Source: a bacterium
Lineage (GTDB): Bacteria > Pseudomonadota > Alphaproteobacteria > Rhodobacterales > Rhodobacteraceae
NCBI GenBank assembly: GCA_016124195.1
Contig: WGOE01000004.1
Coordinates: 186,001 to 250,000 of the forward strand
Length of the DNA stretch: 64,000 bases
Direction: 5' to 3'
In this document: positions 21,446-49,657 of the stretch, piece after piece
Layout of the letters: the number at the start of each line of letters is the position of its first letter
Numbering within the stretch: position 1 is the first letter of the stretch
Notes under the pieces: generated by a model
The model's input: the letters and a program-made list of their open reading frames with translations, nothing else
Database searches by the model: none
Told to the model about the DNA's origin: nothing
Translations under genes and position numbers: made by a program

Positions 21446-21684
21446 TCGAATTCGGTTGATATCCATCAATGCCCGGGGTCCGTCTTTGACAAAACCTGTT
21501 CAAACGATGTGACCGCACCAGACTCCGGACTGGGCAAAGACCCGAGCCGCATACCCCTTCCGAGGCAATTTTCGCCCGAAGCCATGCCGGTAAGAATAAC
21601 CCGGAGTTCGTCCAGCGCGGGCGCGAAGAAAAGTGGATTACGCTTGATACGCCCTCAAATTTGCTCTGACAGGAGAATTGGGAT

Positions 21685-22503
21685 ATGGAAACCGGAGTAC
21701 GTGGCGGCGATTCCGCCAGAGGCAGATTTCCGTTTGCACGGCGCAGCATCGAGATTGACCCGCGCGCCATTGCCGTCTTGGGATCTGCGCCGAATAAGAC
21801 TGCTGCTCCTCTGACCAAGGCGCCACCGTTCGATCTTTTGGCCGTGATCGACAATCGCGCCCTCGAACGCGAGTGTTTTGTGCTTTGCCTGCAACAGCAA
21901 TGCCAGGGCTCGCGCGTGGTGGGATATGAATCGGTCAGCGACTGGCAGGCGCGGGTCGGTGCATCCGACATTCGCCAGGTCATCCTGACCAACATCGGTT
22001 CGAAGCCGCTGACCGACGAAGGTGTCAGGGCCATGGTCAAAGAGCAGGTCGCCATGGCAGGCGCGGTGCCGGTGGTCGTGCTGGGCGCCTCCGAGGATCT
22101 TGATACGGTGATTGCGGCACTGGAATGCGGCGCTGCGGGTTATATCCCGCCCGCCATCCACATCGCCAACATCGAGGATGCGGCCAGTCTGGCCGTGGCG
22201 GGCGGTGTGTTCTTTTCGCGCAAATCGGTCTTTGCGCTGCGCGAGGGCGGCCCGCCCGCGGATGCGGCGACGACGCTGGTGCTGGACCAGTTCACCACCC
22301 GGCAACGCGCCGTGGCGCAGGTGTTGCGGCGTGGTGCGGCCAACAAGACCATCGCCTACGAACTCAAGCTGCGCGAAAGCACGGTGAAGGTGCATGTCCG
22401 TCAGATCTTCAAGAAGCTGAAGGCCACGAACCGCACGCAGGCGGCCTTCCTGCTCAACCAGATGACGGGATGGTCGGGCGACCCGCCCCAGACCAAGGAT
22501 TGA
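21685..22503 (+). CDS. LuxR/NarL-type transcriptional regulator with degenerate receiver
   Basis: A 272-residue DNA-binding protein. Residues about 50-185 look like a decayed response-regulator receiver: where the phospho-acceptor Asp is expected the sequence reads ILTNIGSKPL, and the usual conserved Lys is replaced in AAGYIPPAIH. Phosphorylation therefore seems unlikely. Residues about 205-265 are a clear LuxR-type HTH (FTTRQRAVAQVLRRGAANKT, then IAYELKLRESTVKVHVRQIF). AGGAG precedes the ATG. It sits in the middle of the polysaccharide island and is its only obvious regulator; no histidine kinase is adjacent. Confidence 0.87.
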   Translation: METGVRGGDSARGRFPFARRSIEIDPRAIAVLGSAPNKTAAPLTKAPPFDLLAVIDNRALERECFVLCLQQQCQGSRVVGYESVSDWQARVGASDIRQVILTNIGSKPLTDEGVRAMVKEQVAMAGAVPVVVLGASEDLDTVIAALECGAAGYIPPAIHIANIEDAASLAVAGGVFFSRKSVFALREGGPPADAATTLVLDQFTTRQRAVAQVLRRGAANKTIAYELKLRESTVKVHVRQIFKKLKATNRTQAAFLLNQMTGWSGDPPQTKD

Positions 22504-40732: not shown

Positions 40733-40834
40733 AAGCCGCGCACGACGGGCCGTCGGGCGCCGCATCGGGCGGCCCGCTGCCGAACGGCCCTTTCCACTTG
40801 CGCGGAACGCAGCACTCTGCGGAAAGGGATGAAG

Positions 40835-41749
40835 ATGGACGCCGAGCCGACGGTGATTGGCACAAGGAACGCCTCGCTTGCCGCGCGTCTGCAGGAATTC
40901 GCGGGGCTTTTGGAAGATCAGGGCGCCGACCGCTTCCGGGTACGCGCCTATCAGGAGGCGGCGGCCCAGATCCTTGCGCTGCCGGTGCCCCTGCGCGACC
41001 TTTTCGAAAGGGACGGGATGGCGGGCCTCATCGCTCTGCCCAGGATCGGGCATGGCATCGCGGCGGCGCTGGCCGAGATGCTGACCTCGGGGCGCTGGTC
41101 GCAGCTGGACCGGCTGCGCGGGGATGCCTCACCCGCGCGGCTGTTTCAGACCATTCCCGGGATCGGCGCGGCGCTGGCCCGCAAGCTTGCCGACGATGAA
41201 GATATTGAAACGCTGGAAGAACTGGAGATTGCCCTGCAGCCCGATGGCCGCCAGATCGCGGGTCTTGGTCCGCGGCGCAGACAGGCTGTCCTGGACCATC
41301 TGGCGCAACGGCTTGGCGCGGCCCGACGCGGCCAGAGTGCGACCGCGATGCCGTCCCTGGCTCTTTTGCTGGAGGCCGACAGCCTCTACCGTGACCGCGC
41401 CGCGGCCGGAACCCTGCGAAAGATTGCCCCCCGCCGGTTCAATCCGGAAGGCAAGGTCTGGCTGCCCATTCTGCATGCAAGACGGGACGACTGGCACCTG
41501 ACCCTGCTGTGGTCGAATTCGGCGCTGGCCCACCGCTTGGGCAAAACCACGGATTGGGTCGTGGTCTACTTTCACAAGGACGGCCTGCCCGAGGGGCGCT
41601 GCACCATCGTCACCGAAATCCGCGGCCCTCTGGCCGGGCACCGCGTGGTGCGCGGCCGAGAGGCTGACTGCGCCGAACTGGAAGCCAGCCACCCCGCTTT
41701 GCCCGAAGGGTCAGCACCAGCAAAGTTCGACCACGAAAATCACATCTGA
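40835..41749 (+). CDS. Helix-hairpin-helix DNA-binding protein (PolX N-terminal-like, no polymerase palm motifs seen)
   Basis: A protein of about 304 residues. Its first 150 residues resemble the 8-kDa plus HhH region of family X polymerases: LAARLQEFAGLLEDQGADRF, YQEAAAQILALPVPL, a first HhH IALPRIGHGIAAALAEML and a second FQTIPGIGAALARKLADD. The expected nucleotidyltransferase GGxRR and DxD motifs and the PHP domain are absent. The second half (LLLEADSLYRDRAAAGTLRK, then LTLLWSNSALAHRLGKT) is unfamiliar. The ATG at 40835, six bases after GGAAAGGG, is better spaced than the ATG at 40829. Role unknown, perhaps DNA repair. It adjoins the Crp/Fnr cluster. Confidence 0.75.
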   Translation: MDAEPTVIGTRNASLAARLQEFAGLLEDQGADRFRVRAYQEAAAQILALPVPLRDLFERDGMAGLIALPRIGHGIAAALAEMLTSGRWSQLDRLRGDASPARLFQTIPGIGAALARKLADDEDIETLEELEIALQPDGRQIAGLGPRRRQAVLDHLAQRLGAARRGQSATAMPSLALLLEADSLYRDRAAAGTLRKIAPRRFNPEGKVWLPILHARRDDWHLTLLWSNSALAHRLGKTTDWVVVYFHKDGLPEGRCTIVTEIRGPLAGHRVVRGREADCAELEASHPALPEGSAPAKFDHENHI

Positions 41750-41787
41750 TGGCTCGGGCTGATACCGGAAGCGGTGCGGCGCGGCGG

Positions 41788-42528
41788 TCACTCTTCGCCG
41801 GCGTCAAGATCATTGCCGCAGGCATCGGTCAGGGCCTGCAGATCGGGCACTTCAAAAGTCTCTGGCGTCAGGATGCGGATGACGCCCTGCGCCTCGAGCT
41901 CGTGAAAGGCCCGGCTCAGCGTTTCTTTCCGGGTGCCCAGATATTGCGCCAGATCCTTGCGAGACAACACGTTGCGCACGATGATCGGGCCGCCGCGGTC
42001 CGCCGCCCGCGCACGCCGGGCGAGGATCATCAGGAACGAGGCGACCCGTTCCACCATCTTGCGGCCGCTGATCAACAAGAGCCATTCGCGCGCCGCATCC
42101 ATCTCGTCCAGAAGATGGACGAGGAACAGCCGTTCGACATCGGGATATCGGTGCAGCACCTCTTCGAACGGCCCACCCGGAAAGCACAGGATCCGTGCCG
42201 GCGTCAGCGCCTCGATCCGGTAGGAGCTGGGTCCATCCAGCATCCGGCCGTAAATGTCGGTCGGCACCAGAAGGCCCACGATATGTCTGCGGTGCTGATC
42301 CACCGACTGGATCATGCCGGCGACGCCCTCGACGAGATAACCGATTTCGTGAGCGATCTTGCCGTCTTCCAGAATGACGTCTCCGGCTTGCAGGCTGCGC
42401 AGGGTTGCAAGCGACAAGAGCGCCTCGCGCGAGTCCGGCGACAGGGTGGCCATAAGCTTGACCAGAAGCCCGTCGGCCCCGTCGATCACGGCTTCGATTT
42501 CGGCACGGCTGTCGGCGTCATTTGCCAT
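41788..42528 (-). CDS. Crp/Fnr-family transcriptional regulator
   Basis: A 246-residue regulator with an N-terminal cyclic-nucleotide-binding-like beta barrel (LQAGDVILEDGKIAHEIGYL) and a C-terminal HTH. The recognition helix reads TRKETLSRAFHEL, containing the E-x-x-S-R arrangement that in FNR contacts TTGA half-sites. No Cys cluster for an iron-sulphur centre is present, placing it with FixK/Dnr-like proteins rather than oxygen-sensing Fnr. The ATG at 42528 is 12 bases from GGGAGG. Divergent from a second regulator of the same superfamily, with an FNR box between. Confidence 0.9.
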   Translation of the reverse strand: MANDADSRAEIEAVIDGADGLLVKLMATLSPDSREALLSLATLRSLQAGDVILEDGKIAHEIGYLVEGVAGMIQSVDQHRRHIVGLLVPTDIYGRMLDGPSSYRIEALTPARILCFPGGPFEEVLHRYPDVERLFLVHLLDEMDAAREWLLLISGRKMVERVASFLMILARRARAADRGGPIIVRNVLSRKDLAQYLGTRKETLSRAFHELEAQGVIRILTPETFEVPDLQALTDACGNDLDAGEE

Positions 42529-42856
42529 GGCAATAGTTTTCCTCCCTTCGGCTCCTAGCAATCAAGTTGGACCGATGTCGTAAACCAGCTGTCTCAAACG
42601 GTTGAATGTACGGTTTTAATAAGAAAAAAGATTAACACATGTTATGATTCCCGTCGTTGATTCTGATCAATGCGGCCCCGTCTGAAACGTGCACCATGAA
42701 TTTGATGTGTGGTCTGGGCTCCGGTCCGTCAAGGACTGGCCTGAAGAAGAGTGTGTGAGAAAAAAAGGCTCGCCTTGGGCGCCGGCCGTTGCGGGTGCGG
42801 TCTGCGGTTCATGACGATGCAAGATTTCGCTGTCTTCTTAATTCTGGGGGGTGGGA
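42529..42856. other. 328-bp divergent promoter region between two Crp/Fnr genes
   Basis: Relatively A+T rich, containing a poly-A/T patch at 42615-42635 and the perfect FNR box at 42657-42670. It holds the start regions of both regulators. No gene is supported. Confidence 0.7.
42657..42670. promoter_or_regulatory. Perfect FNR/FixK box (TTGAT-N4-ATCAA)
   Basis: The sequence is TTGATTCTGATCAA, identical to the FNR consensus. Its centre lies about 135 bases from the leftward Crp/Fnr start and 193 from the rightward one. Autoregulation or cross-regulation of the two regulators is likely. Confidence 0.8.
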
Positions 42857-43696
42857 ATGGAATTTGGATGGAACAACCGCGCCGACGGTCCGCCGGACGC
42901 CAAGCTGTCTCGTGGCGCAAGAGCGGCCAATTTGCCCGGCCGGCCGCTGGAACAGACGCAATCCCACCGCGCCGGCCCGACCTACTTGTCCGGGGACCTC
43001 GTCACGCTGGATGCCGGGGCCGAAGTGATCGCCGAGCGGTCCAGCGGACGTCACATCTGGCTGATCCGGTCGGGCATCCTGCGGCTGCAGCGGTTCTCGT
43101 TCGACGGCCGGCGCCAGATCCTGGCGCTGGCGCTCCCTGGCGAGATCATTGGCTATGAAACCCCCTGGCGCAGCGGATTGTCGGTCGAGACGGCGACCCG
43201 CGCCAAACTCTGCCGGATCGACCGGCGCGACTTTGAAGACCGGCTGGACGCCGATGCCGTGTTGCGGCGGGAATTTGCGGCACAACAGCAGGATCATATC
43301 GAGCGGCTGCGCTGGCTGACCTGTTCGATAGGCTCGCTGCGGCCCGAGGAACGGCTGAGCGCTTTTCTGGCGCTGGCCACCTGCTGCATGCCCTATCAGC
43401 CATTGCCCGATGGGACGGCGGTGCTGACGATGCTGATCTCGCGCGCGGACATGGCCGATCTGCTGGCGACCACCATGGAGACGATCAGCCGCGTCACCCA
43501 TGCGCTGGAAGAGGACGGGGTGGTGACCATCGTCGATCCCGCCCATTTTCGCATCGTCGACCTGAAGAAGCTGGCGGCGCTTGGCCGCATCAGCGACAGT
43601 TTCGAGGATATGGCGACGCGGCTTAAACAGCCGCGGGATCGGTGTTTTCTCAGGGCCTGGTCCTGCGGCAGCTGTGTTTCGCGCTCGGCCTGTTGA
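42857..43696 (+). CDS. Crp/Fnr-family transcriptional regulator with Cys-rich C-terminal tail
   Basis: A 279-residue regulator. The sensor barrel (YLSGDLVTLDAGAEVIAERS, then LWLIRSGILRLQRF-like) is followed by an HTH whose recognition helix TMETISRVTHALEE keeps the FNR E-x-x-S-R residues. The protein runs on past the HTH into a tail of about 35 residues ending CFLRAWSCGSCVSRSAC: four Cys with spacing C-x6-C-x2-C-x5-C, the last being the final residue. There is no N-terminal Cys cluster. The ATG at 42857 after GGGGGTGGG is preferred to the GTG at 42851. The TGA stop lies within the box that precedes hsp20. Confidence 0.88.
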   Translation: MEFGWNNRADGPPDAKLSRGARAANLPGRPLEQTQSHRAGPTYLSGDLVTLDAGAEVIAERSSGRHIWLIRSGILRLQRFSFDGRRQILALALPGEIIGYETPWRSGLSVETATRAKLCRIDRRDFEDRLDADAVLRREFAAQQQDHIERLRWLTCSIGSLRPEERLSAFLALATCCMPYQPLPDGTAVLTMLISRADMADLLATTMETISRVTHALEEDGVVTIVDPAHFRIVDLKKLAALGRISDSFEDMATRLKQPRDRCFLRAWSCGSCVSRSAC

Positions 43697-43706
43697 CAGC
43701 AGTCAA
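43693..43706. promoter_or_regulatory. FNR/FixK-type box upstream of hsp20
   Basis: TTGACAGCAGTCAA is a perfect inverted repeat of the FNR type with C/G flanks. Its centre is 75.5 bases from the hsp20 ATG. Placing it at -41.5 predicts a -10 element near 43730, where TATCGT is found. The upstream regulator's stop codon lies inside the box. Confidence 0.72.
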
Positions 43707-43774
43707 TGCTGCCATGTCCCGCCCGCGCCTATCGTTCCGGACATTGAATGCAACTTTGATGGAGGATTGGCACG

Positions 43775-44305
43775 ATGGGAAAAAAACAAGGTGATATTGC
43801 CGTCAGAAGTGAACCCGCCGCGACTGGCGCTGTAGCAGGGCCCGAATGGGAACCCTTTCGCGCGTTGCGTCGCCAGATGGACCGCTGGATGGCCGATTTC
43901 GACGGACCAGATTTCCGGTTCGGCCTGCCACGCAAGATGATGATGCCGCAGCTTTGGCCCGAGCCGGGGATAACGGTGCCGCCGGTCGATCTGGTCGAAC
44001 GGGACGATGGCTATGAACTGCAGGTCGAATTGCCCGGGCTCACCGAAAAGCAGGTCGAGGTCAAGCTTTCAGACGGCGTGATGACGATCAAGGGCGAGAA
44101 GTCGGCCGAACGGGTCGAGGACCAGGCCGATTTCCACCTGCGCGAGCGCAGCTATGGCGCGTTCCAGCGGTCGTTCCGCGTGCCCTCGGGCGTGGAGGGC
44201 GACAAGATTCAGGCCAGCTTTGAAAATGGCGTCCTGAAAGTCTCGCTGCCCAAATCGGCCGCGACCCAGCAAACCGCCCGCAAGATCGAGGTGAAGCCCG
44301 CCTAG
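43775..44305 (+). CDS. Small heat-shock protein Hsp20 (alpha-crystallin family)
   Basis: An ATP-independent chaperone that holds unfolded proteins. The 176-residue protein has an extended N terminus (RALRRQMDRWMADFDGPDF). The alpha-crystallin domain begins at PPVDLVERDDGYELQVELPG and includes VEVKLSDGVMTIKGEKSAE, GAFQRSFRVPSGVEGDKIQA and the A-x-x-x-N-G-V-L signature ASFENGVLKVSLPKS. GGAGG lies upstream of the ATG. An FNR/FixK-type box at 43693 suggests induction by the nearby regulators. It converges on the phosphotransferase-ATPase gene, sharing the four bases CTAG. Confidence 0.95.
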   Translation: MGKKQGDIAVRSEPAATGAVAGPEWEPFRALRRQMDRWMADFDGPDFRFGLPRKMMMPQLWPEPGITVPPVDLVERDDGYELQVELPGLTEKQVEVKLSDGVMTIKGEKSAERVEDQADFHLRERSYGAFQRSFRVPSGVEGDKIQASFENGVLKVSLPKSAATQQTARKIEVKPA

Positions 44306-45846
44306 AGCGGGTCCCCGGTCAGGCAGGACAGGGCGGCAGAGGCTGCGGCGCTCGTGGCTTCGGCACTGCCGCCCGCATCGATGCTGCGCCAGTGGCGTGG
44401 GTCGGGAGGATCGGCCGAAGCCAGCGCCGCCAGCTGAGCCTGCACCACGGCCGGATCGGCGTCCGAGGCATCGCCGTGCCGCGCGCTTACCCTTTCGATC
44501 AGGACATGCGGCGGCGCCTGCAACCACAGGCCGCAAAACGAGATGCCCGCCCGCGACGCCAGATCCTCAGCCGCCCGCCGCTGGGTCGCCTCCAGAAAAG
44601 TGGCATCCAGAATGACGCTGGCGCCCGCGGCGCTCAGCCGGGCTGCCCGGGCCAGCATCCGCTGATAGATCGCATCGCGCGCGGCCGGCGCATAGCTGAC
44701 CGCTGAGGTCAGGCTCTTGCGTTCGGTGTCGCTGCGCAGATGTACCGCGCCGGGGCAGGGCGCGATCATGGTACAAAGCGCCCGCGCCAGTGCCGTCTTG
44801 CCGGTGCCCGACACCCCGCCGATGGCCAGGCCGACCGGCTTGCGGTTGGCCAGATGGCCCAACGCCTGCGTCAGATAGCGCCGTGCCGTGGCGGCCGAAT
44901 GTCCGGGCTGGCCGGTCGCCTGATCGGTCTGCAGCACGACCATGGCGCGGATCGCCGCGCGCACCGCCATGAACAGCGGCAGGGCGGCAAGGCCGGCGTC
45001 TTCGGCCCCGCCAGCCGCCAGAAGATAGGCGTTCAGCACCGCATTCGCCTGGCGGCCGAAGGACAGGTGGCACAGGTCCATCAGCAGGAAGCCAAGATCG
45101 TAAAGCACATCGCAGGTCGCCAGACGCTCGTCGAATTCCAGCGCGTCTAACAGGACCGGCCGTCCGTCAATCAGAAGCAGGTTGCCCAGATGCAGATCGC
45201 CATGCACCCGCCGCACATGGCCCGCGGCAGAGCGCTGGCGCAGGGCGGGGCTGACCGCGGTCAGGTGCTGCCGCGCGGCGCTCAGGAAAGCTGCGAGCTG
45301 ACCCACATCGAGCCCGGCCTGCATCGGCGTCAGCACGCGCTCCAGCTCATCAAGGATCTCGCCGATCAGCGCGTCCCCCGGTTCGGATCGGGTCGGGCAA
45401 CCGCTGTGAAACGCCTGAATGACCCTTCCGAGGTCTTCGGCCACGGCCTCGGTCAGCCGGCCGCTGGCTGCGACCGCAGTCATCTCGTCTTCGGTGGCAA
45501 AGCGGTTCATCCGCAGCACCCATTCGACCGGGGGCCCGCTGCCGTCGAGCCGCAGCCCGGCATCCGGCGCAAGGGTGATGGGCACCACGTCGCGGTAGAT
45601 GTCGGGCGCGGTCGCCCGGTTCAGGTCCAGTTCGCGCTGCAACATCGCGTGGCGCAGGTCCGGCGTGGACAGGTCCATGTAATCATAGCGCACCGCGCGC
45701 TTGATCTTCAGCGCAACCCGGCCGCACAGGAAGACATGTGCGCCATGGGTCGTGACATGCGTCACCGGACCGGGCTCAGGGTAGGTGGCCGGCGCGCAAA
45801 GCAGGCGGATGATCGCGTCCTGCGGGCTCTCGTCAGGCTGCCGCAT
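44302..45846 (-). CDS. Aminoglycoside-phosphotransferase-like / P-loop ATPase fusion protein
   Basis: A 514-residue two-domain protein. Residues about 25-330 are a phosphotransferase-like domain (HGAHVFLCGRVALKIKRAV, then RRVHGDLHLGNLLLIDGRPV with the catalytic HGDLH-x2-N, and LLDALEFDERL). Residues about 345-514 are a zeta-toxin/kinase-like P-loop domain with Walker A GGVSGTGKT and LDATFLEATQRRAA. The architecture matches the DosR-regulated mycobacterial protein Rv2004c; substrates are unknown there too. The ATG at 45846 follows GGAAGGGG; the more distant start at 45900 would cut into the promoter. A TTGATCCGCGTCAA box is centred 75.5 bases upstream, the same distance as at hsp20. Confidence 0.87.
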   Translation of the reverse strand: MRQPDESPQDAIIRLLCAPATYPEPGPVTHVTTHGAHVFLCGRVALKIKRAVRYDYMDLSTPDLRHAMLQRELDLNRATAPDIYRDVVPITLAPDAGLRLDGSGPPVEWVLRMNRFATEDEMTAVAASGRLTEAVAEDLGRVIQAFHSGCPTRSEPGDALIGEILDELERVLTPMQAGLDVGQLAAFLSAARQHLTAVSPALRQRSAAGHVRRVHGDLHLGNLLLIDGRPVLLDALEFDERLATCDVLYDLGFLLMDLCHLSFGRQANAVLNAYLLAAGGAEDAGLAALPLFMAVRAAIRAMVVLQTDQATGQPGHSAATARRYLTQALGHLANRKPVGLAIGGVSGTGKTALARALCTMIAPCPGAVHLRSDTERKSLTSAVSYAPAARDAIYQRMLARAARLSAAGASVILDATFLEATQRRAAEDLASRAGISFCGLWLQAPPHVLIERVSARHGDASDADPAVVQAQLAALASADPPDPRHWRSIDAGGSAEATSAAASAALSCLTGDPL

Positions 45847-45914
45847 GGCTTGCCCCTTCCTTTCAGACCGTGAAGGCCCGGCTGCGATATTGTGACACAC
45901 CGGACGGCCTGGCC

Positions 45915-45947
45915 TTGATCCGCGTCAACACCGTTGACGCTGGTCAA
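45915..45947. promoter_or_regulatory. Tandem FNR/FixK-type boxes in a divergent promoter
   Basis: TTGATCCGCGTCAA (45915-45928) and TTGACGCTGGTCAA (45934-45947) lie 19 bases apart, centre to centre. The first is 75.5 bases from the leftward phosphotransferase start and the second 86.5 from the rightward zinc-protein start, so each probably serves one gene. Confidence 0.72.
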
Positions 45948-46026
45948 TGTGCCCGGCCGGGATGCGGAGAATGCTGCTTTCACGGCCTGCGCCGCAGGTC
46001 GTGGAAAATCGGGTAGGAGCAGACCG

Positions 46027-46347
46027 ATGCGTGACAATTCCCTTCAGATCAGACCGCAGCCCGCAACCGATGTCGGCATTGTTTTTCACGGCTGTCCCAG
46101 TTGTGGTGCCGGTCCCCTGCAGTCCCGCACGATCTCCAGCATCCTGTGGCAGGGCGACAAGGCCGTGATGGTGCGGGGCGTGCCCGTCACGATCTGCGCC
46201 GCCTGCGGCGAAGACATCATCAGCGAGGCGACCGCCCGCGATCTGCACCGCATCACCGGGGCCGCCTACGGCACCTTTTCCAGCGCAAAGCATGTCAGTA
46301 TCCCGGTGCTCGAATTCGGCAAGATCGCGAGTTCCAGCAGCACCTAG
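46027..46347 (+). CDS. YgiT-type zinc-finger protein (MqsA N-terminal-like)
   Basis: A 106-residue protein with two C-x2-C zinc ligand pairs, FHGCPSCGAGPLQ and TICAACGEDIIS, separated by the beta-hairpin typical of YgiT/MqsA-type antitoxin N termini. The C-terminal part (EATARDLHRITGAAYGTF) is short and shows no clear HTH. No MqsR-like toxin gene is adjacent, so it may be a stand-alone zinc protein rather than an antitoxin. The ATG at 46027 is seven bases from AGGAG. An FNR/FixK-type box lies upstream, linking it to the stress island. Confidence 0.72.
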   Translation: MRDNSLQIRPQPATDVGIVFHGCPSCGAGPLQSRTISSILWQGDKAVMVRGVPVTICAACGEDIISEATARDLHRITGAAYGTFSSAKHVSIPVLEFGKIASSSST

Positions 46348-46448
46348 CAAAGCAGCCGGAAGCGCCATGCCGGGGGCCACCCGGCGCGGCAGGGCAGGTG
46401 CGACCGTGCCAGAGACGCGGTCCGACTGCCGCGCCGGCGACGCACCGC

Positions 46449-46916
46449 TCAGCCGGTCACGCCGGCGTTGTGCATCGCATCTGTTATGGCCTGCCTCAGG
46501 TCGGCTTCCGACAGGAGCAAGAGGTTCTTCGGCACCTCGCGGAGAACCAGTCTGCGCAGCATCATGGGCATCGACAGGCGCAGATTGCCCAGCACGTCGT
46601 GTTCGGCATAGATCACCAGCCGGTCCAGTTCCCCGGCGCGTCGGTGACATTCCAGAAGGGCTATGACCTGACGGGCGAAGGCCCGCATATCTTCGGCCAC
46701 GGGATCGTGCCGGACGTCGCGCGACCGATGCCGCCCGCCGCGTCCCGGGGCAGGGCGCGAAGGTCCGCCCGCAAGGGATGCCTTCACATGCAGGCCTTCG
46801 GATTTCATCACCAGTTCCGGCAGCCCATCCGTGTCGCGGTCATCAAGCCCGCGTAGGATCCGCGCGCGCGCGCCGTTCATGACCAGCGCCCAAGTCCGCT
46901 TCTTGTTGCCCATCAT
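46449..46916 (-). CDS. Host-attachment-family protein (Host_attach, eRF1-like fold)
   Basis: A 155-residue protein of the family annotated as required for attachment to host cells. It has TWALVMNGARARILRGL near the start, a basic variable middle (RPAPGRGGRHRSRDVRHD), then FARQVIALLECHRR, LDRLVIYAEHDVLGNLR and the final LREVPKNLLLLSEADLRQAI. These match the conserved order A-D-x-x-x-A-R, P-x-x-L-G-x-L-R and K-D-L. The biochemical role is not established; in many proteobacteria it neighbours Hsp20 or universal-stress genes. A TTGATGGCGGTCAA box is centred 67.5 bases upstream. Confidence 0.82.
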   Translation of the reverse strand: MMGNKKRTWALVMNGARARILRGLDDRDTDGLPELVMKSEGLHVKASLAGGPSRPAPGRGGRHRSRDVRHDPVAEDMRAFARQVIALLECHRRAGELDRLVIYAEHDVLGNLRLSMPMMLRRLVLREVPKNLLLLSEADLRQAITDAMHNAGVTG

Positions 46917-46976
46917 CGTATCACCCGGAAGTGAAGTTGCTGCGCTACTTTCTTCATCGGCTTTGCGCGCGTGGCA

Positions 46977-46990
46977 TTGATGGCGGTCAA
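46977..46990. promoter_or_regulatory. FNR/FixK-type box upstream of the host-attachment-family gene
   Basis: TTGATGGCGGTCAA fits TTGAY-N4-RTCAA. It is 67.5 bases from the leftward start and about 119 from the rightward FecR-domain gene. Confidence 0.65.
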
Positions 46991-47102
46991 TTCCTGACGA
47001 GGGCGCTGGCCTGCGCCACGCCCCCGGCGGCCGACCGCGGTGCTATGCGGCGGCGCCCGAAGCTGCTAGGATCGCGAGGTCTTGTGGCAGAGGAAACCGA
47101 CC

Positions 47103-47765
47103 ATGCTCATCGGATCGAAAGGCCGGCCCAATGCGCCAAGGGCGCGCCTTGCGGGGGCTGGGCTGGCCATGGTGCTTGCGCTTGTTGGCCTTGGCGCGCG
47201 GGCGGCCGATACGCAACGGGCCTGCAGCGTGGACGGCATGTCGCGCGGCGGCGAAGCGCAGCTGGCGGTCAAGGGGCAGTGGCAGCCCATCGCCAAGGGT
47301 CAGGTCCTGGCACCCGATGCGAGGCTGCGCACCGGGCCGAACACGCGGCTGCACGTGACCTGCGACGACGGGATCGCCGTCACAATCGGCGTCGCCACCG
47401 AGATCGCGCTGACCGGGCTGGTCGGGGCGGCGGGCCCCGACCGCAGCATCGTGATGCATCTGACCGCAGGCTCGACCGGGATCGTGGCACCCAGGCACAC
47501 CTGGGACAGGTTCGAGGTTGCGACCGATGTCGCCATCGCCTCGGTCCGTTCGACCGAATGGCTGGTCGAGCGCGGCCCCGATGGCACCTCGTCCGTCTTC
47601 ACCCGCCGCGGGCTGGTGGCGGTCAGAGCCGGCGGCACAGAGGTCGCGGTGAATGCGGGCAAGGGCGTTTCTGTTTCGGCGGGGGCGGTGATGGGTCCGG
47701 TCAACACCTGGAGCCGCGCCCACATCGCCGAATCCGGGCGCGCGCTTGGCTTTGACTGGAAATGA
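47103..47765 (+). CDS. Periplasmic FecR-domain protein
   Basis: A 220-residue exported protein. After a basic N terminus and hydrophobic signal (LAGAGLAMVLALVGLGARAA), it carries a FecR domain: QWQPIAKGQVLAPDARLRTG, LHVTCDDGIAVTIG, VMHLTAGSTGIVAP and FEVATDVAIASVRSTEWLVE. Such proteins often sit in front of CHASE2 adenylate cyclases, as here, where the stop overlaps the cyclase ATG. They may form a periplasmic input to the cyclase, but this has not been shown. The ATG at 47103 is preferred over 47082, since GAGGAAA lies between. Confidence 0.82.
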   Translation: MLIGSKGRPNAPRARLAGAGLAMVLALVGLGARAADTQRACSVDGMSRGGEAQLAVKGQWQPIAKGQVLAPDARLRTGPNTRLHVTCDDGIAVTIGVATEIALTGLVGAAGPDRSIVMHLTAGSTGIVAPRHTWDRFEVATDVAIASVRSTEWLVERGPDGTSSVFTRRGLVAVRAGGTEVAVNAGKGVSVSAGAVMGPVNTWSRAHIAESGRALGFDWK

Positions 47766-49657
47766 CGGCACGGCCGCGTGCCCGGCCCGGCTGGATCGGT
47801 GTCCTGGCGACTGCGGCGCTGTGCCTGGGCTTTGCGCTGTGGCGCGTCCTTTCGGGTGATGCCGTGACCGACGGCTGGCAGGATCGCTCGGTCGATCTGC
47901 GCTTTGTGCTGCGCGGTCCGCGCCCGGCGCCGCCTGATCTGGCCATCGTGGCGATCGACGAGGCGACGGTTGATCGTCACGGCTGGTCGCCACCGCCGCG
48001 CGCGCTGTTTGCCCGGGCGATCCAGACCGTGCTTGCGGCGCGACCCGCCGCCCTTGCCATCGACATGCTGTTTCTGGATGCCACCGATCAGGATGCGGCA
48101 CTGCAAGCGGCGCTCGCCGCCGGTGCGGGGCGGGTGATCCTGGGTACGGCGGCCGATTATGCTGCCGCGGGTCCGGTCTCGCGGTCGCCGGCGCTCGAGG
48201 CGGCGCTGGTGAACAGCGCCCTGCCCACCGTGGCCGGACAGGCTGCGGTCGCGACCCCGGCCCCCCGGCTTTTCGCGCCCAATGACCGTTTCCTGACCGA
48301 TGCCACGCTGGGTCATGTCAACATCATCGCCGCGGCCGACCGGGTCGCGCGTCGGGTTCCGCTGACCGAATGGATGGGCGAGGACCTTTATCTGCCGGCC
48401 CTTTCCCTGGCGGCAGCGCTGCAGTTCGCCGGGGCCGCGCCCCCGATCCTCAGCCCGGGCCAAAGCATCGCGGTCGCGGGCCGCAAGATCGCCACCGACC
48501 GGCACGGCGCCGTTCTGGTCAATCTTTACGGAAAACACGGCGCGGTGCCGACTTATAGCCTTGAAGATCTGGTCGGCGGGCGCGTGCCGGCCGAAGCTCT
48601 GGCCGGTCATGCGGTCTTTCTGGGCATCACGGCGGCCAGCCTGTCGGACGAATTCGCCACCGCCTTCGACGCCCATACCCCCGGCGTGGAGGTTCTGGCG
48701 ACACTGGCCGGCAATCTGATGACCGGGGACCTTTTGATCGAGGATGCCACGACCCGGGCCGCGACCGTCGCGCTGACCTGCCTTCAGCTGCTGGCGCTGG
48801 CAGGTTCGCTTGGCATCCGCCGCCTGGGCCTTTTCGCGCTGAGCCTGAGCCTGCCTTGGGCGGCGGGCCTTGGCGCGCTGGTGCTGGCCTTTGACCGCGC
48901 CAACCTCGTGCTGGACGCGCCGGCCGTGGTTTTCACGCTCCTCCTGGGCAGCGGCGCCGTCGTCGCCCGGCGTCTGACGCGCGAGACCTTGCGGTCTGGA
49001 CGGCTGGCCAGCGAAAGGCAGAACTTGTCGCGCTATGTCTCCCCCCTTTTGGCCGAGGATCTGGCCCGGTCCGCGACACCCGATTTCGCCGGCCGCACCC
49101 AGGCCGCGACGGTGCTGTTCGTCGATCTGGCCGGCTATACGACCCTGTCCGAGGCCCTGTCCCCGGCCGAGACGCAAAGCCTGCTGCACGGGCTCCACAT
49201 CGCCTACGAGGGTGCCGCCTCGGACCATCGCGGCGTCGTGGCCGGGTTTTGGGGCGACGGCGCGATGATCGCCTTTGGCCTGCCGCAGCCACAGGCCGAC
49301 GATGCCGCGCGCGCGATTGCCTGTGGCCACGCGCTGCTGGCCCGTGCTGCGAGCTTGACCCCGCCCGACCGGCTGGGCCAGCCCCTGCGGCTCAGGGTCA
49401 GCATTCATTCCGGCGTGGTCGTGGCCGCGATGGCCGGAAGCGACCGTCAGGCCCAGGTCACGCTGAACGGCGACACGGTGAACGTGGCAAGCCGCCTGCA
49501 AGAGGTGGCCAAGCAGAACGGGGTGAGCTTTGTCCTTTCCCGTGCGACGCTGGCCGAGGCAGAGGCGGCATCTCCGGGATCGGCGGCCGGATTTTCCCGG
49601 CTTGGACCTGCCGCGATCCGCGGTCGCGCCGAACCGATCGAGGTCTGGTCGCACTGA
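47762..49657 (+). CDS. CHASE2-domain adenylate/guanylate cyclase (class III)
   Basis: A 631-residue membrane enzyme producing cAMP (possibly cGMP). A first membrane segment (WIGVLATAALCLGFALW) precedes a periplasmic CHASE2 domain (DLAIVAIDEATVDRHGW, DMLFLDATDQD). Three membrane segments follow at about residues 330-400, then a class III cyclase domain: VLFVDLAGYTTLSEAL with a metal Asp, GVVAGFWGDGAMIAFG with the second Asp, and VTLNGDTVNVASRLQEVAKQ. Overlaps the FecR-domain gene by ATGA. Its product could feed a Crp-type regulator, though the two in this window look FNR/FixK-like. Confidence 0.92.
   Translation: MTARPRARPGWIGVLATAALCLGFALWRVLSGDAVTDGWQDRSVDLRFVLRGPRPAPPDLAIVAIDEATVDRHGWSPPPRALFARAIQTVLAARPAALAIDMLFLDATDQDAALQAALAAGAGRVILGTAADYAAAGPVSRSPALEAALVNSALPTVAGQAAVATPAPRLFAPNDRFLTDATLGHVNIIAAADRVARRVPLTEWMGEDLYLPALSLAAALQFAGAAPPILSPGQSIAVAGRKIATDRHGAVLVNLYGKHGAVPTYSLEDLVGGRVPAEALAGHAVFLGITAASLSDEFATAFDAHTPGVEVLATLAGNLMTGDLLIEDATTRAATVALTCLQLLALAGSLGIRRLGLFALSLSLPWAAGLGALVLAFDRANLVLDAPAVVFTLLLGSGAVVARRLTRETLRSGRLASERQNLSRYVSPLLAEDLARSATPDFAGRTQAATVLFVDLAGYTTLSEALSPAETQSLLHGLHIAYEGAASDHRGVVAGFWGDGAMIAFGLPQPQADDAARAIACGHALLARAASLTPPDRLGQPLRLRVSIHSGVVVAAMAGSDRQAQVTLNGDTVNVASRLQEVAKQNGVSFVLSRATLAEAEAASPGSAAGFSRLGPAAIRGRAEPIEVWSH

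Follow-up and report, generated by a model that had tools for sequence, protein, structure and literature searches.

We analysed a stretch of 64,000 nucleotides (the window) from a bacterium of the Rhodobacteraceae (assembly GCA_016124195.1, contig WGOE01000004.1, positions 186,001 to 250,000), in which two neighbouring regulators of the CRP/FNR family, here called CRPA and CRPB, adjoin a small island of stress genes carrying five FNR-type boxes of the form TTGAY-N4-RTCAA (41788-46990). CRPA and CRPB are a conserved regulator pair. The island appears to be a second-tier low-oxygen survival module, in which the FnrL of the same genome would activate CRPA and CRPB and these would in turn activate the stress genes, a reading to which we assign a probability of about 0.6. 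Judged from its sequence, the module varies on the known FNR/FixK low-oxygen stress regulon by having two regulators as a conserved pair and a box class of its own, and we infer its function, its signal and the roles of the two partners. What looks new here is the regulator pair together with its box subclass; in the open literature no title or beginning of an abstract describes such a pair, which is weak evidence, as subscription papers fell mostly outside the search.

CRPA (41788-42528, minus strand, 246 amino acids) and CRPB (42857-43696, plus strand) both match the Pfam domains HTH_Crp_2 and cNMP_binding above cut-off. Their recognition helices, ETLSR and ETISR, have the FNR-type E-x-x-S-R residues that an earlier note on this DNA, made from the letters alone, had described. 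Neither protein reaches the 300-bit equivalog cut-off of the NCBIfam FnrL model (147.5 bits for CRPA, for which it is the nearest model, and 64.6 for CRPB) or that of the FixK model, by name the Caulobacter protein (62.4 and 61.9 bits), and the nearest solved structure (PDB chain) for both is FixK2. In a tree of 91 rows, CRPA (41 rows) and CRPB (37 rows) each form one group, with support of 99/90 and 100/99 respectively, and CRPA clusters with FnrL (13 rows) and not with CRPB.

The pairing is found well beyond the window, in relatives that are Rhodobacterales. Of 394 genomes from the family, 11 gave a CRPB match at E <= 1e-30, and 10 of the 11 carry CRPA on the same stretch; in the remaining one (G027) the two genes are on different contigs, each near the contig start. 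The corresponding CRPA search gave matches in 44 of these genomes (49 rows at 1e-36), and the 30 best loci, to which the pairing counts refer while 19 lower rows were left unclassified, were divided by their profile scores into 24 of CRPA type and 6 FnrL-like ones. CRPB lies within 1.5 kb of 19 of the 24 CRPA-type loci. The five others are G027, at its contig edge, G356, G353 and G369, where no CRPB was found in wider stretches around CRPA, and G090, where the gene after CRPA encodes a protein distantly like CRPB, with CQTCKQRHNALC and a score of 56.7 bits against the CRPB profile. Among the best 80 of 548 relatives in a collection of named organisms, 21 loci were CRPA-type and 19 of them had CRPB alongside (14 pairs divergent, 2 tandem and 3 convergent); the two without it both come from Actibacterium metagenome-assembled genomes (MAGs), and none of the 59 FnrL-like loci has CRPB. 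Thioclava pacifica DSM 10166 and Pseudotabrizicola alkalilacus DJC are among the named strains that carry CRPA and CRPB. The profiles behind this sorting drew on members of the very families that were then counted. Furthermore, CRPA and CRPB distances correlate over 36 pairs (r = 0.87, reached in 0 of 5000 permutations), a value to which shared species history contributes.

The five boxes are exact matches to the pattern, at the places where the earlier note had put them. The first, TTGATTCTGATCAA (42657-42670), is of the TT type and lies between the divergent CRPA and CRPB, an interval also boxed in G007 (L070) and G323 (L097). The second, TTGACAGCAGTCAA (43693-43706), precedes the gene for the small heat shock protein Hsp20 (43775-44305, plus strand; PF00011, E=1.4e-24). 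Two more, TTGATCCGCGTCAA (45915-45928) and TTGACGCTGGTCAA (45934-45947), share a divergent region between the fusion gene, which joins an APH-like phosphotransferase to an AAA_33 P-loop domain (44302-45846, minus strand; PF01636 and PF13671) and whose ATG is 68 bp from TTGATCCGCGTCAA, and the gene for a YgiT-type zinc-finger protein of 106 amino acids (46027-46347, plus strand; TIGR03831, 40.3 bits against a cut-off of 20.2). The last, TTGATGGCGGTCAA (46977-46990), is 60 bp upstream of a gene of the baeRF family 12/Host_attach type, release-factor-related by family name (46449-46916, minus strand; PF18856 and PF10116). These gene identities agree with those first proposed; the description of the boxes as lying in four successive intergenic regions holds in general, but the box at 43693 overlaps the CRPB stop codon. 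No box is present between the convergent Hsp20 and fusion genes.

Such a concentration of boxes is far beyond chance, as the genome scan proposed by the earlier note made clear. The whole genome has 32 exact places (64 rows, both strands) in 4,256,655 bases, and therefore about 0.03 would be expected per 4.3 kb; the island has 5. At least 5 of the 32 sites fell inside 4.32 kb in none of 200,000 random placements and, when the double box was counted once, the probability of at least 4 of 31 sites was 9.5e-5. With one mismatch allowed the whole window contains 12 sites, compared with a mean of 2.95 in shuffled versions, none of 100 reaching 12. Actually, this clustering extends to the relatives: around 13 CRPB loci of 12 genomes, picked by CRPB and not by boxes, we found 27 boxes within 5 kb, versus 0.69 expected from each genome's rate (genome sizes rounded), and at least one box in 10 of the 13.

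Conservation of the boxes in orthologous promoters, which the earlier note had suggested examining, was found in two relatives. Contig C319 of G007, a genome of the same genus, has the order CRPA, box, CRPB, box, Hsp20, fusion, box, the same as in the window, with proteins 53-64% identical and with diverged spacer letters in the boxes, and G323 retains CRPA, box, CRPB, box and Hsp20. In the relatives the half-sites are thus kept and the spacers changed. The distance from box to start codon also bunches at the pair loci, some of which are near-copies of each other: 64-66 bp for Hsp20 in 6/10, 64 bp for the fusion in 4/9 and 61-62 bp for DUF2267 in 5/8. In the window the hsp20 box is 68 bp from the ATG, and 66 bp in G007 and G323. 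This takes the ATG at 43775 as the start; the gene caller had placed it at 43877, which gives 170 bp in the distance table and for which reason the window's hsp20 is absent from the set of oriented sequences used next. Over 61 such box-gene sequences from pair loci, the score for a TATAAT-like hexamer peaked 29.5 bp from the box centre (mean 1.84 versus 1.00 over all offsets, z 3.9). A class II FNR promoter has its box at -41.5 and its -10 element at -12, and the 29.5-bp spacing deduced from sequence would agree with that layout. For hsp20 a candidate -10, TATCGT, was seen by eye at 43730-43735, 1 bp off the peak. Because half-sites persist, start distances bunch and the -10 signal peaks at 29.5 bp, the boxes are very probably working regulatory sites.

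The genome encodes its own FnrL elsewhere (454.9 bits, cut-off 300), and a box precedes this gene. Besides fnrL, boxes occur at ccoN, ccoG, bchE, hemA and ppsA (gene models above cut-off) and at nosR-, hemN- and DksA-like genes (matches below cut-off); the gene divergent from ccoN is a universal-stress gene, named by eye, and the remaining boxes outside the island are inside genes or beside unrelated ones. Many of the genes classically under FnrL are thus boxed, which shows that the pattern picks up genuine sites in this genome. The boxes of the putative targets of the pair and those of fnrL promoters differ at position 5 of the half-site, which is C in 76 of 96 target half-sites (20 T) and T in 65 of 92 fnrL-promoter half-sites (27 C). 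No TT box was found among 48 target boxes (28 symmetric CC and 20 mixed), and no CC box among 46 from fnrL promoters. The pair promoters are intermediate, with 6 TT, 18 mixed and 5 CC of 29 boxes (half-sites 28 C:30 T). Taken by locus, the targets have a C majority in 17 of 24, are even in 7 and are reversed in none, and of the 15 loci with both kinds, 10 have targets C-richer than the pair promoter, 4 have them equal to it and 1 has them poorer. The window itself has a TT box at the pair promoter and, at its targets, two CC boxes and two mixed ones; the 27 boxes of the genome outside the island are 10 TT, 10 mixed and 7 CC. Such a distribution would fit a scheme in which FnrL acts on the pair and the pair on the targets.

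The genes that carry boxes near the pairs were tallied over 43 loci, counting a box within 300 bp upstream and with one duplicate (L155, of L175) dropped. The regulators themselves are boxed in 28/42 (CRPA) and 14/35 (CRPB) cases. Boxes precede baeRF in 16/25, Hsp20 in 10/18, the fusion in 6/10, DUF2267 in 8/10, CBS in 5/7, phosphoribosyl pyrophosphate (PRPP) synthetase in 6/6, BON in 2/4 and FtsH and SPW in 1/1 each, and 32 of 400 other genes. Outside pair loci the link is weaker: a box upstream of the fusion gene was found in 1 of 13 relatives (G040) that have this gene and no CRPB match at 1e-20. In G051 a box next to the fusion gene lies on its 3' side and was left uncounted. Hsp20, the APH-AAA fusion, CBS proteins, an M50 protease with CBS, a P-type ATPase, phosphoribosyltransferases and S30AE proteins are present near pairs of relatives, not all of them boxed, and transcription from neighbouring genes may extend into the unboxed families. 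The YgiT gene is the weakest member of the module, because only one of the eight YgiT genes near pairs is boxed, the window's own.

A larger version of the module was observed in G163 (L100/L113; contig C12, 329-358 kb), a 29-kb island with 9 of that genome's 23 boxes and with genes for CBS, DUF2267, phosphoribosyltransferase, P-type ATPase, M50-CBS protease, Hsp20, GATase and YtfJ-like proteins, the DUF2267 and M50 genes having no box on their 5' side. In four distant pair loci (L104, L146, L148 and L149) S30AE proteins of the ribosome-hibernation type adjoin CRPA, checked with Pfam for L148 and L149, the latter also with a cold-shock domain at its cut-off. At L145, L152, L153 and L100 the pairs adjoin an operon of YgiT-like, dehydrogenase-like subunit and MBOAT-like genes (the last two named by eye), whose YgiT-like genes differ from the lone one of the window.

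The cysteine ligands separate the two regulators. A C-x2-C-x(4-9)-C motif before the sensory domain is present in 21 of 37 CRPB rows (with a last gap of unusual length in two, L072 and L160), in none of 41 CRPA rows and in all 13 FnrL rows. Neither regulator of the window has the N-terminal cysteine motif of FNR oxygen sensors, also when stop-to-stop frames are considered, and direct oxygen sensing by either through an FNR cluster is therefore not supported; a cysteine at the internal place is kept in both (by eye). Thus CRPB lacks here the N-terminal cysteines kept by many of its orthologues. Within its clade, two of the three cysteines survive in most neighbours (Pseudotabrizicola, Cypionkella, Tabrizicola and others) and none in the window. 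On the tree the cysteine label needs four to five changes, so loss and gain can be only partly separated, and the simplest reading is that the older state was a sensor-plus-relay pair, of which the window's copy would have lost direct sensing. Control by cAMP was also considered, in view of the cNMP_binding domains and of a cyclase gene near the island (see below), and is unsupported: the phosphate-binding signature of CRP was not seen by eye, and the cyclase had no blastp match in the relatives' loci compared. The cysteine-rich C-terminal tail of the window's CRPB (43640-43706, CFLRAWSCGSCVSRSAC) continues into the box, and its orthologues at L070 and L097 have CxCG near the same place, a metal site or chance. 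Two pairs coexist in G007 (L070 and L071/L072), one clusterless and the other with CDVCPLRPRDGYGC in its CRPB and, on its contig, a baeRF fragment with a box; a Cypionkella MAG also has two (L162/L163).

Putting these data together, when oxygen falls FnrL, which is of the [4Fe-4S] type, would bind the TT-type box between CRPA and CRPB and switch on both genes. The two clusterless proteins would then bind the TTGAC-type boxes, centred by comparison at about -41.5, and in this way turn on, from class II promoters, hsp20, the kinase-ATPase fusion together with YgiT, and baeRF; from their families, the products may guard proteins and translation in the non-growing cell. CRPB would formerly have been an FNR-type sensor paired with a clusterless CRPA, as tree and cysteine pattern suggest, its ligands having decayed in the window's lineage, and because of this decay FnrL is the likely oxygen input. 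There is a precedent for a tiered scheme in Dinoroseobacter, where FnrL directly controls the clusterless dnrE and dnrF (PMC5398030).

Several points weigh against this scheme. Some CRPA-type loci have no CRPB (G356, G353, G369 and L177; L175 is the contig of G353), and 3 of the 13 pair loci (G360, G129 and G301) have no exact box within 5 kb. Near the pairs boxes are rare upstream of YgiT (1/8) and APH-only (1/6) genes and absent upstream of those for S30AE proteins (0/6), phosphoribosyltransferase (0/6), USP (0/3) and Zn-alcohol dehydrogenase (0/2), and the enrichment by family is partly circular, because the target families were picked after viewing some of the same box-bearing loci. The comparison of box classes was made after the fact with rows from related species that are not independent, the 46 of fnrL being one promoter in many related species, and in this genome ccoG carries a CC box. 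Finally, in R. sphaeroides FnrL and a clusterless relative bind overlapping sites (PMC4263372), so that FnrL alone could drive every box.

The last point leads to the alternative that survives best, namely that the boxes are extra FnrL sites and that CRPA and CRPB control something else, being nearby by history. FnrL is present, the 14-bp pattern of the island also stands at FnrL-type genes elsewhere in the genome, and the relative that shares sites with FnrL in R. sphaeroides is CrpK (PMC4263372). We consider it unlikely, given that the box class is mostly TTGAC at the targets versus TTGAT at fnrL, that the boxes cluster round the pair in 10/13 loci and that the fusion gene is boxed in 6/10 pair loci versus 1/13 relatives without CRPB. 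Less probable still is a CRPA-CRPB heterodimer with one half-site for each partner, in which mixed boxes would be heterodimer sites and, in relatives, one half would sense oxygen through its cluster. The conserved pairing with matched divergence would suit it, as would the mixed boxes in 18/29 pair promoters and 20/48 targets, and Fnr1-Fnr3 heterodimers have been reported in Herbaspirillum (PMC5934665); but 28/48 target boxes are symmetric CC, and cross-regulating homodimers would account for the pairing equally well. Sensing of nitric oxide or redox state by the pair, as in DNR/NNR or FixK2, in place of an oxygen relay is very improbable: both regulators are clusterless, FixK2 is their closest solved structure and the boxed nosR-like gene is a denitrification gene of this genome, but denitrification proteins were 0 of 30 scanned from pair neighbourhoods (400 other genes unnamed) and nothing in the sequence identifies a haem site.

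Beyond the tiered module itself, a more tentative idea, which we rate as possible but below even odds, is that a two-protein oxygen switch occurs in several genera of Rhodobacterales. A cluster-bearing CRPB and a clusterless CRPA, possibly as a heterodimer, would act on the TTGAC subclass to run a DosR-like programme of Hsp20, baeRF, kinase-ATPase, CBS, DUF2267, PRPP synthetase and a ribosome hibernation factor. In the lineage of the window the cluster of the sensor would have disappeared in steps, from three N-terminal cysteines to two and then none, leaving the pair as a relay under FnrL with subfunctionalisation in progress.

Control of this kind of gene by FixK/FNR proteins is already in print. 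The predicted FixK core regulon includes Hsp20, CBS, alcohol dehydrogenase and phosphoketolase (PMC2908626); in Bradyrhizobium the Hsp20 gene blr7961 and the host-attachment gene bll5315 are direct targets of FixK2, and a second host-attachment gene, bll4645, is induced and not a direct target (PMC6515984); and a Rhizobium Hsp20 is FnrN-dependent (PMC11784457). The FixK/FixK2 regulon has a single FixK, compared with two paired regulators in the island. The second-tier regulators DnrD, DnrE and DnrF of Dinoroseobacter shibae and CrpK of R. sphaeroides share the FNR-type box with the island and are likewise clusterless, some being under FnrL (PMC5398030, PMC4263372). They serve denitrification, photosynthesis or plasmid genes, whereas CRPA and CRPB are inside a stress-gene island with mostly TTGAC-type boxes, and we set them side by side by features, not by orthology. 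In Herbaspirillum the Fnr1/Fnr3 hierarchy also has several FNR paralogues, with distinct half-site preferences and heterodimers; these proteins are described as cluster-dependent and, in the available part of the paper, are not presented as a paired locus (PMC5934665).

The likeness to the DosR regulon of Mycobacterium tuberculosis is one of content, a small heat shock protein and a kinase-ATPase fusion under one low-oxygen regulator. The fusion of that regulon is Rv2004c. Hsp20 and the APH-AAA fusion are shared with it at the level of Pfam families, and the relatives of the island have further families that we presumably can also assign to the DosR set. The regulator family and the DNA box are unrelated: the DosR consensus GGGACTWWAGTCCC, with up to 3 mismatches, occurs 4 times in the 64 kb against 3.27 expected and never in the island. 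The earlier note had proposed a DosR-like module under an unrelated regulator family; the overlap in content stands and regulators of a non-DosR family probably run this low-oxygen/stress survival module, but DosR kinship is not supported, as the DosR palindrome is at chance. The note's cautious wording, that such a family may control an analogous module, falls short of present knowledge, in view of the published control of Hsp20 by FixK2 and FnrN and of a host-attachment gene by FixK2. The lxa locus of Burkholderia cenocepacia comprises about 50 genes. This betaproteobacterial low-oxygen locus, with alpha-crystallin and USPs, has also been compared with DosR in print, and its suggested regulator, BCAM0049/FixK, is elsewhere by locus number, whereas in the island the regulators are within (PMC6127331).

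If our reading holds, the dormancy-like gene set of mycobacteria and Burkholderia would be run in Rhodobacterales by a dedicated FNR-family pair, and similar survival programmes would therefore have been wired to unrelated regulators. The relatives with three, two and no N-terminal cysteines would form a natural series illustrating how an oxygen sensor becomes a relay, and the box subclass may let the two regulatory tiers be distinguished in genomes. The baeRF/host-attachment and DUF2267 proteins and the kinase-ATPase fusion, conserved and little-tested, would gain a shared regulatory setting.

An origin of the island from a plasmid or mobile element is unsupported: in blastn of 41500-48000 against plasmids only the fusion gene was covered (at most 16%) in the 10 of 48 records listed. 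Homologues of the fusion gene are found on named plasmids, annotated as 'bifunctional aminoglycoside phosphotransferase/ATP-binding protein', and one CRPA/CRPB pair is on an 860-kb replicon of Rhodobacter sp. CZR27. Against solved structures, the fusion protein gave only a little informative match to the APS kinase P-loop and the baeRF protein no significant match.

The genes directly past the last box (47103-49657) encode, besides a CHASE2-adenylate/guanylate cyclase, a FecR-like protein whose start is 112 bp from the box at 46977, so that this box may serve both directions. The cyclase gene starts 0.8 kb past this box. On the other side, a PolX-like helix-hairpin-helix protein (40829-41749) adjoins CRPA and has a 54% identical relative near CRPA in G356 (L154). 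A further exact box, TTGATATCCATCAA (21456-21469), precedes the gene of a LuxR-like regulator (by eye; 21844-22503), whose called start is 374 bp away; in reverse complement this box is identical to that of ppsA on contig C16.

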